DNA of 64,000 nt from Acetobacteraceae bacterium B3987. GTDB lineage: Bacteria > Pseudomonadota > Alphaproteobacteria > Acetobacterales > Acetobacteraceae. The stretch is from NCBI GenBank assembly GCA_026537415.1, contig JAFNMF010000001.1, positions 241,572 through 305,571 on the forward strand. The letters run 5' to 3'. The translations under genes and the position numbers were made by a program. The notes beneath the pieces were generated by a model, which was not told the DNA's origin, searched no databases, and saw only the letters and a program-made list of their open reading frames with translations. Below, one piece after another: positions 14,995-18,410 of the stretch (the first letter of the stretch is position 1; each line of letters starts with the position of its first letter).

Positions 14995-15282
14995 TCAGTC
15001 GTGGCGTTTTTCGTCCGGCTTTGTAGCCTCATGGTGAGACTGCTGTGTTTCCTCGGTGGGGTGATTGTCTGTTTTGTCGGATGATGGATACAGATTATTT
15101 CTGAATGGAATGGGCATACCATCCGAGAAATAGCCATTTTCTACTTTTGCATCTTTGGGAAGCTTATCCCGGGTAAAACGGTTGACGAGCCAAGGGAACA
15201 GTTTCTCATGATAATAGACGACATAAAGGGCTATCCAGAAGAACAGGCAGAGAAGGGCCAGTATGAGGTTGAGATGCTTCAT
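14995..15282 (-). CDS. small single-pass membrane protein, 95 aa, unknown
   Basis: I do not recognise this protein. Residues 4-24 form one hydrophobic helix (LNLILALLCLFFWIALYVV). The rest is hydrophilic, with a conserved-looking central stretch (FPWLVNRFTRDKLP) and a tail rich in His, Glu, Thr and Lys, ending in EKRHD. The histidines in the tail could bind metal, but that is speculation. Only a weak GGA lies before the ATG. It is a single gene reading toward gshB, and diverges from pmtA. Confidence 0.6.
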   Translation of the reverse strand: MKHLNLILALLCLFFWIALYVVYYHEKLFPWLVNRFTRDKLPKDAKVENGYFSDGMPIPFRNNLYPSSDKTDNHPTEETQQSHHEATKPDEKRHD

Positions 15283-15466: not shown

Positions 15467-16123
15467 ATGGTGTCTTCCCTTAAACCCCGTTCTTCTCTCG
15501 ATGCGGATAGCGTACGTGACGCCTATCGCCGCTGGGCCCGCATGTATGACAAGGTTTTTGGCGGTGTATCTGCTTTCGGGCGGCGGCGGGCTGTGGAGGC
15601 TGTCAATGCGCTCCCGGGTACACGTGTGTTGGAGGTCGGTGTTGGGACAGGGCTGGCACTACCTTCCTACAAGCCAGAAAAGCATATTACGGGAATCGAC
15701 CTTTCGGAAGACATGCTTGCCCTCGCACGGGAGCGTGTGAAGCGGGAAGGTCTTCGTAATATAGATGAACTTATGGTGATGGACGCCGAGAATACCAGCT
15801 TTGCCGATAACAGTTTCGACATTGCGGTTGGCATGTTTGTGGCTTCTGTCGTGCCTCACCCGGACCTGTTGCTGGCGGAGCTGAAACGTGTCGTCAAACC
15901 CGGTGGACACATTCTTTTTGTCAATCATTTCCTTGCCCGGGGTGGTATCCGCCTGAAGGTGGAGAAGATCATGGCCCGTGCCTCTCGTGCGCTGGGCTGG
16001 CATCCTGATTTTGCCATTGAATCCCTCCTCCCGCCGGAGGATCTGGCCCGGGCGACCATTACCCCCGTACCACCCGCCGGGCTTTTCACCCTCGTGACAT
16101 TGCCTCCTGAGGGGGCTAAATAA
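15467..16123 (+). CDS. pmtA: phosphatidylethanolamine N-methyltransferase-like class I methyltransferase
   Basis: A 218-residue SAM-dependent methyltransferase of the kind that turns phosphatidylethanolamine into phosphatidylcholine in alphaproteobacteria. The first motif is VLEVGVGTGLALPSY (residues about 54-68), followed by ITGIDLSEDML and MDAENTSFADNSFDIAV. The N-terminal RRWARMYDKVFG stretch resembles PmtA. The family also contains other lipid and quinone methyltransferases, so the substrate is inferred. A hairpin separates it from the next gene by 37 bases, so the genes may share a transcript. Confidence 0.75.
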   Translation: MVSSLKPRSSLDADSVRDAYRRWARMYDKVFGGVSAFGRRRAVEAVNALPGTRVLEVGVGTGLALPSYKPEKHITGIDLSEDMLALARERVKREGLRNIDELMVMDAENTSFADNSFDIAVGMFVASVVPHPDLLLAELKRVVKPGGHILFVNHFLARGGIRLKVEKIMARASRALGWHPDFAIESLLPPEDLARATITPVPPAGLFTLVTLPPEGAK

Positions 16124-16160: not shown

Positions 16161-17432
16161 ATGAATGTAACAGGCTGGCAGAATAGAGTGACTTCAGGGC
16201 CGTTATTCCAGAGAGTATCTTCATTCCATCGTGGTGGGAGTGGCGGGGCATTTTTCCTGTTGGCACTCTTTGCCGGTATGCTGGGGGGCGTTATGGGTCT
16301 GCCCTTCCTGCATGTTCATCCTTCGGCAGGTGTTGTTGTCTCTCATGCTGTGTTGATGACATTTTATGTCGTCGCTCCTGCTTTTCTTGGCGGGATGGCG
16401 CAGTGGTTCCTGCCGGATCTCCTGAAAGGTGAGGGCATGGCCCTGCCTTCTGCGGCCCGTATCGGCTTTGGTGTGCTGGCGGTTGGAGTGTTCCTTCTGC
16501 CCATCATGCCCTTTGTCGGGCTGTCTCTCTGGAGTGTCGGTGTGCTGGCTCTGGCCTTCAATGTGGTGGCCACGGTTTTGGAGATGCGCTCCATTCCGTT
16601 CCGTGCTTTCCCGCCGCTGGTCTGGGCCTTTCTGGCCAATGCTCTTTCCATGCTCATCATTGCGCCGGTTCTTCTGGCGTTCCTGCTGCGGAGCGGGATG
16701 GCTGATGGAGGACCGGAGGCCCTGCTGACAGTCCTGCGTGGCAGCGTGGAAATGACCCTGCTGAGCGTGCCTTCACTCGGCATCATCATGGCGGCTCTCC
16801 TGCCAAGGCAGACGGGGCAGGGGTGGGTAAGTCGTTGTGCCCCTTATGCGTTTGGTCTCATGGGGCTTGTGCCTGTCCTGTTCTGGGCGGATCACCTGTT
16901 TGGTGAATTTTCTTCGTCTGCCTATAAGGTCAGTCTACTGGTAGGGCTGGTTCTGCCTTGTCTGGCTCTGCTGGTGGCGTTTGCCAGAGACCTCTGGCGT
17001 ACGGCTCTGCCCTCCGGTCCGGCTGCGAGCTGGGCTTCTGGTGGGCTGGTTTTGTTGCTTGCCGGGTGGACGGCCATGCTGACGGAACCGCTCTGGGCAG
17101 GGGCGGGTGTGCAGCCCGGTGCCTTTATGTTGGGGGCAGCAGGGCATCAGCTGGCCATGTTCGGTAGTCTGTTGGCTCTAAGTGCGGCTTTTTATGGTTG
17201 GTGCGGAGTAAGGCTAGTCTCTCACGGGCGGTTCTTTGCTGCCTTCGGAATGGCCCATGCATTGGTTACATTTGTCGGGGCACTTTGCTCTGTTCTGCCG
17301 CAATTGGCTGTGCCAGCCGCTCTGTTGATGGGGGCCAGCCTGCTCATGTTTGCCCTGCCCGCTGGGATGGTGTGGTATGGTATGCTCGTTGAGCGGACCC
17401 AAGGGGTAATGGGGCTTCTTCGTAAACAGTAA
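16161..17432 (+). CDS. degenerate cytochrome oxidase subunit I-like membrane protein
   Basis: A 423-residue protein with about 10-12 hydrophobic helices. By eye it aligns with heme-copper oxidase subunit I. SHAVLMTFYVVAPAFLGG (residues 61-78) matches helix II, including the low-spin heme ligand (H62). PPLVWAFLANALSMLIIAPV matches helix V. GSVEMTLLSVPSLGII (194-209) sits where GHPEVY is expected. FWADHLFGEF matches the region of the paired histidines, and AAGHQLAMFG (326-335) matches helix X. The low-spin heme ligands seem kept (H62, H329). The CuB/heme a3 ligands are mostly replaced (S195, D244, A327), as is the cross-linked tyrosine (T199). It lies 12 bases before ctaB, where a real ctaD could be expected. 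Oxygen reduction is unlikely, and a heme-binding role is inference. Confidence 0.6.
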   Translation: MNVTGWQNRVTSGPLFQRVSSFHRGGSGGAFFLLALFAGMLGGVMGLPFLHVHPSAGVVVSHAVLMTFYVVAPAFLGGMAQWFLPDLLKGEGMALPSAARIGFGVLAVGVFLLPIMPFVGLSLWSVGVLALAFNVVATVLEMRSIPFRAFPPLVWAFLANALSMLIIAPVLLAFLLRSGMADGGPEALLTVLRGSVEMTLLSVPSLGIIMAALLPRQTGQGWVSRCAPYAFGLMGLVPVLFWADHLFGEFSSSAYKVSLLVGLVLPCLALLVAFARDLWRTALPSGPAASWASGGLVLLLAGWTAMLTEPLWAGAGVQPGAFMLGAAGHQLAMFGSLLALSAAFYGWCGVRLVSHGRFFAAFGMAHALVTFVGALCSVLPQLAVPAALLMGASLLMFALPAGMVWYGMLVERTQGVMGLLRKQ

Positions 17433-17444
17433 GGCGTTTTTCCT

Positions 17445-18410
17445 ATGCAGGCATCATCCAGCCTTTCGGCATCTCCACTGGCCCGTTGTTTAGGGGTGTT
17501 GCGTGTGGAGGGGCACGATGGTGATGCTGCTTTCCAGGACTGGATAGCCCTGCTTAAACCACGGGTGATCTCGCTGGTTGTCTTTACCGGGTTGGCTGGT
17601 ATGGCCGTGGCACCGAGATGGCCATCCGTACCGGTTGGGCTGGTCATTATCGCCTGTATCTGTATCGGAGCCGGTGCGGCGGGTGCCATCAATATGTGGT
17701 ACGACCGTGACATTGATGAAATCATGAAGCGCACCCGTGTCCGCCCTGTGCCTAGTGGACGCGTGGAACCGACTAGTGCGTTGGTCTATGCTGTTGTGCT
17801 GTCCGTGGCTTCGGTCGTGCTGCTTTGGCTGGCGACCAATTTGCTAGCAGCAGGTATTTTAGCCTTTTCCATTTTCTTTTACGGTGTGATTTACACCATG
17901 TGGCTGAAGCGCAGCACGCCGCAGAATATCGTGATTGGCGGGGCTGCCGGGGCTTTCCCGCCCATGATCGGTTGGGCCGCCACGATGGGGTCGCTGGATG
18001 TGCTGCCGGTGGTGATGTTCGCCATCGTTTTTCTGTGGACACCCCCGCATTTCTGGTCGCTCTCTCTCTATGCCTGCAAGGATTATGAGAGTGCGGGCAT
18101 CCCCATGTTGCCGGTCGTGAAAGGCGCACGCCATACACGCTGGCAGATCGTTATTTATACCTTCATTCTGGGGGCTGTGTCCCTCGTGCCGAGTGTGGTG
18201 GGGCAGTGCGGTTGGTTCTATACGGTCTGTGCCAGTTTGCTGGACCTTGGCTTCATCTATTACGGGCTGCGTGTTCTGTTTGACAAACAGGATGACAAAG
18301 GCAACAGCCTGACGAAAGATAAGCCGGCCCGTCATGCGTTCCGCTATTCACTGGCCTATCTGTTCTTCCTTTTCTGCGGCCTTCTGATTGATAGGGTTCT
18401 TCTGGCATGA
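17445..18410 (+). CDS. ctaB: protoheme IX farnesyltransferase (heme O synthase)
   Basis: An integral membrane UbiA-family prenyltransferase that adds a farnesyl group to heme B to give heme O, needed by bo3-type quinol oxidases and as a precursor of heme A. It has 321 residues. The first Asp-rich motif is NMWYDRDIDEIMKRT (N83, D87, D91). The family signature WLKRSTPQNIVIGGAAGAFP and the second conserved loop CKDYESAGIPMLPVVKG are clear. The N-terminal 30 residues before the core are longer than usual. It overlaps the next small gene by 4 bases (ATGA). Heme for it would come from the pathway that includes hemC, hemD and hemF in this window. Confidence 0.95.
   Translation: MQASSSLSASPLARCLGVLRVEGHDGDAAFQDWIALLKPRVISLVVFTGLAGMAVAPRWPSVPVGLVIIACICIGAGAAGAINMWYDRDIDEIMKRTRVRPVPSGRVEPTSALVYAVVLSVASVVLLWLATNLLAAGILAFSIFFYGVIYTMWLKRSTPQNIVIGGAAGAFPPMIGWAATMGSLDVLPVVMFAIVFLWTPPHFWSLSLYACKDYESAGIPMLPVVKGARHTRWQIVIYTFILGAVSLVPSVVGQCGWFYTVCASLLDLGFIYYGLRVLFDKQDDKGNSLTKDKPARHAFRYSLAYLFFLFCGLLIDRVLLA

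Follow-up and report, generated by a model that had tools for sequence, protein, structure and literature searches.

The locus studied here raises the question of what use a cell has for a relative of cytochrome oxidase subunit I that has lost most of the centre at which oxygen is reduced. Within the window (the whole 64,000-nucleotide stretch of DNA analysed, from a 2.04 Mb genome of the Bombella group, hereafter G000), an open reading frame of 423 amino acids at 16161..17432 (+ strand) encodes such a COX1-like protein, a degenerate CtaD with the low-spin heme site alone, and lies 12 nt upstream of ctaB, the gene for heme O synthase (17445..18410, + strand; TIGR01473, 334.4 bits, above cut-off). 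The protein is 81-91% identical to six named Bombella records. An earlier note on this DNA had proposed that the protein keeps both low-spin heme ligands, that it no longer reduces oxygen and may instead bind a heme of type O, A or B, perhaps as an electron carrier, a regulator or a heme-holding partner for ctaB, and that it is not a dead gene.

Neither Pfam nor NCBIfam gave a match for the 423-aa protein as a single query. With phmmer, that one sequence was enough to find COX1 chains from solved structures (best E 7.6e-9). A profile of 50 relatives matched such chains with E 1.2e-75 across its positions 15-371, which rules out chance similarity to COX1 and places His at both low-spin positions. 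Our alignment A1 comprises 50 of the first 52 rows, with L038 and L049 omitted; L038, whose 701-aa frame was considered as a possible fusion, is an overlong frame starting inside the methyltransferase gene. PF00115 was matched by 34 of the 50 relatives, with the window protein outside those 34, and no other Pfam family was matched among the 50 members (E 0.001), thus giving no match to NnrS, a COX1-related heme protein. The homology extends over the helices, as is characteristic of subunit I of heme-copper oxygen reductases, and the 423-aa ORF is a true COX1/CtaD homologue.

Residue by residue, the protein divides into a preserved and a dismantled half, with the ligand names of aligned positions being those we take from established knowledge of cytochrome oxidase. 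H62 (codon 16344..16346, + strand) and H329 (codon 17145..17147, + strand) fall at the low-spin heme ligand positions of helices II and X in both phmmer and profile alignments, as the earlier note had placed them, with H329 on the last His of the HFH motif in helix X; both positions are His in 19/19 functional CtaD as well as in 103/103 intact homologues. The pair of His needed for a low-spin heme site is retained. In the phmmer alignment, residues S195-T199 (codons 16743..16757, + strand) replace HPEVY, with the first CuB His and the cross-linked Tyr lost and E197 kept, residues D244-H245 (codons 16890..16895, + strand) stand at the CuB His-His pair, and A327 (codon 17139..17141, + strand) replaces the heme a3 axial His. 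The column of the first CuB His corresponds to G194 in multiple alignments and to S195 in phmmer, neither of which is His. The substitutions S195, T199, D244 and A327 and the remaining H245 that had been read from the single sequence are thus confirmed, with H245 turning out not to be a family feature, as its column, that of the third CuB His, is His in 8/103 homologues.

Across the family, the first CuB His, the cross-linked Tyr and the K-channel Lys are each found in 0/103 homologues, as are the IX-X loop Asp and His and both propionate Arg, while the formyl-binding Arg is kept in 7/103, the second CuB His in 31/103 and the heme a3 axial His in 2/103. Because the first CuB His, the Tyr and the K-channel Lys stand at zero and the heme a3 His at 2 of 103, the protein, judged by its sequence, cannot be an oxygen reductase, in agreement with what had been proposed before.

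These counts derive from an even sample of the family comprising 249 genomes, 216 of which contain a match to the protein, with many of the matches being true CtaD in 530-690 aa frames. The degenerate form was collected from 52 loci, from 5 more found by profile or family search, and from 46 more in two genera, with matches in 47/49 genomes of the first (g31, 49 genomes, which we guess to be Acetobacter) and in 9/9 of the second. Loci L002-L006 (repeats of the window and of L032-L035), L135, L136, L140, L164, L165, L167, L168 and L171 were dropped as repeats, and L007-L031 were dropped with the same loci taken with longer flanks as L078-L102. Broken frames removed L173 and L209 (one genome, G295) and L208 (G274), and G009 was dropped where a contig end cuts the gene. 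The resulting 103 intact homologues (102 distinct, as L048 and L049 encode identical proteins and were both counted) span 20 genera, with a mean pairwise identity of 29.6% (1500 random pairs) and a median length of 430 aa vs. 529-571 aa for CtaD. We also observed two longer degenerate forms, L127 (G071, 520 aa) and L128 (G013, 479 aa), which may represent steps on the way from full CtaD to the short form.

Against this background of divergence, only four columns are invariant among the 103 intact homologues: H62, H329, W155 (codon 16623..16625, + strand; helix V by position; 103/103) and W242 (codon 16884..16886, + strand; helix VII, the first residue of the WAHH motif; 103/103). Of 17 His invariant in the 19 functional CtaD, both low-spin ligands are the only ones found in all 103 homologues, with the next best retained at 69%. 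The 19 functional CtaD share 248 invariant columns, 5 of which stay invariant in the first 57 homologues, both low-spin His included (hypergeometric p 3e-4 for both His falling among those 5, with phylogeny ignored), and 4 of which, again including both low-spin His, remain at n = 103. Within the high-spin pocket, defined by a list of bovine heme contacts from established knowledge, residue retention falls below that of the other conserved columns (0.085 vs. 0.257, p 0.0012). Retention of the low-spin pocket, taken from the same list, is not significantly above background (0.32 vs. 0.257, p 0.15), so we set aside a conserved low-spin pocket beyond the axial ligands, and the evidence rests on the axial ligands rather than on the whole pocket. 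Gly, Pro and Trp residues of the fold are nearly invariant.

Matsutani et al. 2014 reportedly found ctaD to be non-functional through accumulated mutations, with ctaB and ctaA active. In our analysis, the seven Bombella proteins gave a dN/dS of 0.12, and 10 groups, of which nine are disjoint and one is nested, gave 0.045-0.135; tests against omega = 1 in 8 groups gave 2dlnL of 219-782. Silent sites approach saturation in the deep groups, so the result depends mainly on the close ones. Frames are intact in 103/105 loci and broken in 2/105 (G274 and G295). Intact frames and dN/dS together rule out a pseudogene or a frameshift artefact, and the view that this is no dead gene is upheld. In the two exceptions, the COX1-like gene is split over frames (L208 in G274, L209/L173 in G295), the genomes being 86% and 85% complete, which reflects either recent loss or assembly error. 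The neighbouring ctaB evolves more slowly, at omega 0.013-0.056, a difference that counts against reading the protein as a heme partner of CtaB.

The genomic setting of the gene is highly constant. The order methyltransferase, COX1-like gene, ctaB, all on one strand, was found in 52/52 loci and in 5/5 further ones (57/57 in total), with the ctaB stop 923-978 nt past the COX1-like stop in the 52 loci; in the window, the first gene of this trio encodes a PmtA-like methyltransferase (15467..16123, + strand; best NCBIfam model PmtA, 159.9 bits, below the cut-off of 390). At locus L064, a full CtaD sits between the same methyltransferase, ctaB and downstream genes, and this identical setting makes it most likely that the gene was converted in place. 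Such adjacency to ctaB can itself reflect inherited inertia. The methyltransferase was seen in other settings too, preceding the full ctaD at L064 and adjoining ctaB in G001 and G179 in genomes without an oxidase gene at that point. Further upstream in the window, a 95-aa ORF with a hydrophobic N-terminus (14995-15282, - strand), which recurs upstream of the methyltransferase in 28/52 loci, gave no Pfam match above cut-off and no NCBIfam match.

In the protein tree, degenerate and functional proteins are split by one branch (100/99), and in the CtaB tree the 57 carriers fall on one side of a branch supported at 96/73 and present in 94% of bootstrap trees. The trees of the protein and of CtaB are consistent with a single origin. 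Independent repeated decay was considered and set aside, as the trees allow one origin, although long branches meet and CtaB support is moderate (96/73).

We then asked of the genomes which heme such a protein could receive. The gene for heme A synthesis, ctaA, was found in 0 of 6 Bombella-genus genomes, so the heme here would be B or O, and heme A, which the earlier note had left among the candidates for this genome, is rejected as its cofactor. Elsewhere ctaA is absent from some carriers and present in others, which indicates that the protein is not tied to heme A. CtaG/Cox11 was not detected in any of 27 carriers searched nor in G001 (28/28 genomes without true CtaD), and was found in 4/4 genomes with true CtaD. 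In the genome of the window, COX2 is matched once and only in part, at 28.8 bits over positions 45-113 of 120, next to the gene for a CyoB-like protein, and CtaG/Cox11 was not found, so that a subunit II with CuA together with the CuB-insertion factor CtaG was not found there. A heme O synthase above cut-off was present in each of the 25 carriers examined, together with an oxidase that scores at least 461 bits against PF00115 and would, from its frame length and the literature, be of the bo3/ba3 type.

Gene loss within the carrier group favours a link between the protein and heme O. In a gshB tree, three genomes (G070, G066 and G210) fall inside the carrier group; they lack the COX1-like gene by profile searches, have no heme O synthase above cut-off, and have no strong PF00115 oxidase, with a 139-bit match in an 833-aa frame in G066 and none in the other two. 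In this tree, which includes 52/57 carriers, leaves out L230 (G116, stop inside) and L231 (G031, partial), and has a root that is simply drawn, G210 is placed firmly within its genus and G066 and G070 fall beside the Bombella part. G284 pairs with G210 and is also without the COX1-like gene by profile search, and G029 exhibits the same co-loss pattern on a very long branch; G116, from the genus of G029 and absent from the gshB tree, gave no COX1-like gene in a single-protein search only. The co-loss comprises few genomes, three of them well placed. As a separate observation, G029, G116, G066, G070 and G210 (gshB loci L210, L213, L223, L229 and L230) are all small genomes without heme O synthase above cut-off, and PF00115 is matched in three of them by a 785-833 aa frame at a weaker 139-145 bits and is absent in two; these long frames are perhaps of the quinol NO reductase type, which is our guess.

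Heme O synthase also occurs above cut-off in seven genomes in which the degenerate gene was not found (G001, G179, G190, G227, G031, G050 and G077), and in two of these (L123 in G001, L124 in G179) ctaB directly follows the methyltransferase with no ctaD or COX1-like gene between. G001, G179, G190 and G050 group with functional-CtaD genomes in the gshB tree (94/83), and G001 and G179 lie on the functional-CtaD side of the CtaB tree as well; given this placement, the four most likely lost or replaced an ordinary ctaD and never had the converted form, and we dropped the argument that G001 and G179 demonstrate dispensability of the COX1-like gene. G034, 82% complete and without heme O synthase, is likewise on the functional-CtaD side. 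These genomes show that CtaB in general does not need the COX1-like protein, as heme O synthase works without it outside the carrier clade. Inside that clade, no genome was shown to have heme O synthase and lack the gene, in a check that covered genomes other than G274, G295 and G284.

Taking together the computed homology, the retained ligands, purifying selection, gene order and nested co-loss, we consider it very probable that the protein is a membrane protein under selection that holds a single heme and is no oxidase. It is probably functional as a heme protein connected with the supply of heme O rather than a dead relic. Our best explanation, held with slightly better than even confidence, is that a former CtaD keeps just its low-spin heme site and most likely acts as a membrane heme-handling partner of CtaB; the placement of G001 and G179 made this explanation slightly likelier and a heme-free scaffold marginally less so. 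Under this explanation, CtaD, subunit I of cytochrome c oxidase, would have been converted in place until only the low-spin site was left, with the CuB site, the high-spin ligand, the proton-channel Lys, the propionate Arg pair and the IX-X loop His/Asp gone. A single heme, B or O and, for Bombella, not A, would sit between helices II and X in the grip of H62 and H329, and the partner would take, hold or pass hydrophobic heme O, or present heme B, alongside CtaB, with the heme destined for a bo3/ba3-type ubiquinol oxidase. Heme O handling with CtaB appears to be the best-supported mechanism, and the link to ctaB is favoured by gene order and nested co-loss. Counting against this explanation are a low-spin pocket that is not kept significantly above background, a formyl-binding Arg present in just 7/103 homologues and a propionate Arg pair present in none, the slower evolution of ctaB, and heme O synthase at work in the absence of the protein outside the carrier clade. 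We put forward more tentatively that the stripped oxidase subunit became a dedicated one-heme carrier from CtaB to the very ubiquinol oxidase that replaced its enzyme, selected probably since the ancestor of acetic acid bacteria.

Other readings draw on much of the same evidence. In oxidases the low-spin heme carries electrons, which counts in favour of an electron-transfer or redox-sensing b/o-type cytochrome, in which a single bis-His heme would handle quinol electrons or register redox state and the adjacency to ctaB would be historical. Such a cytochrome would call for the same invariant His pair and could be kept, as observed, in genomes with and without ctaA; we nevertheless regard it as unlikely, since the propionate-side Arg pair and His/Asp are lost and since strict ctaB adjacency and nested co-loss are left unexplained. 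Adjacency to ctaB counts in favour of the heme-free structural scaffold stabilising CtaB that is proposed in PMC10715153, which would also fit the nearly invariant Gly, Pro and Trp of the fold. A scaffold need not, however, retain two His in 103/103 homologues while the other metal ligands vary freely, and we consider it quite unlikely.

The vacant high-spin side offers a further alternative, in which the protein would respond there to gas or heme levels and regulate the operon or the assembly of the oxidase; the vacated pocket could bind a ligand, and the second CuB position is still His in 31/103. This appears improbable to us, as the high-spin pocket has been lost beyond background (the 0.085 vs. 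0.257, p 0.0012, of the bovine contact list) and the conserved trio contains no regulator gene. Least probable is the 2014 view of a functionless decaying remnant kept by chance, which would account for the lost oxidase ligands and the broken frames in 2/105 loci (G274, G295) but not for intact frames in 103 homologues from 20 genera, a dN/dS much lower than 1 and an invariant His pair.

To our knowledge, how heme O, once made, gets to the oxidase despite its insolubility is poorly understood. If one heme is indeed bound at the old low-spin site, the carriers, which are vinegar bacteria and their bee-living relatives, would offer a genetically simple system for testing heme O transfer, with one non-catalytic hemoprotein gene beside ctaB, and a natural oxidase subunit with the low-spin site alone would be useful for heme spectroscopy. 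If true, our explanation would also describe an enzyme turned into the probable helper of its successor, and would correct the published claim that every cofactor ligand has been lost.

Among known systems, the closest is CtaD itself, subunit I of the aa3 oxidase, with which the protein shares homology over most of its length, both low-spin His and its place beside ctaB. The degenerate family differs from CtaD in lacking the first CuB His, the Tyr, the K-channel Lys and the propionate Arg pair (0/103) and, in all but 2/103, the heme a3 His, and its carriers differ in lacking CtaG/Cox11 (27/27 searched) and, in Bombella, ctaA. The CyoB-like quinol oxidase subunit I of the same genome has the superfamily fold and the low-spin heme site in common with the protein but is encoded in a 682-aa frame with a PF00115 match of 461 bits, just past the window end (G000:C28:306833); its CyoB-like type is suggested by this length and by a CyoA-like COX2 match just before it. 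The Bombella intestini genome paper reports bo3 as present and cytochrome c oxidase genes as absent. CtaA/Cox15, a membrane hemoprotein that receives heme O from CtaB according to PMC9145763, is proposed here as an analogy only, with no sign of homology, COX1 being the sole Pfam family matched by members.

In A. pasteurianus, ctaB and ctaD have successive locus numbers in PMC5158111, and term searches of a G. oxydans RNA-seq paper and of a gene-screen paper gave no mention of the heme genes in question. By its description, the 'deranged COX1-like protein' of Acetobacter, likewise COX1-like and beside ctaB, belongs to the same gene family; PMC10715153 (Degli Esposti et al. 2023, citing Matsutani et al. 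2014) presents it as a protein devoid of every conserved metal-binding residue and probably structural. A literature search covering sources other than the alignment of Matsutani 2014 found no report of the retained low-spin His pair. In contrast to the description in PMC10715153, both low-spin ligands are present here in every intact copy examined (103/103), and the published view that no metal ligands are left does not hold for the low-spin pair.
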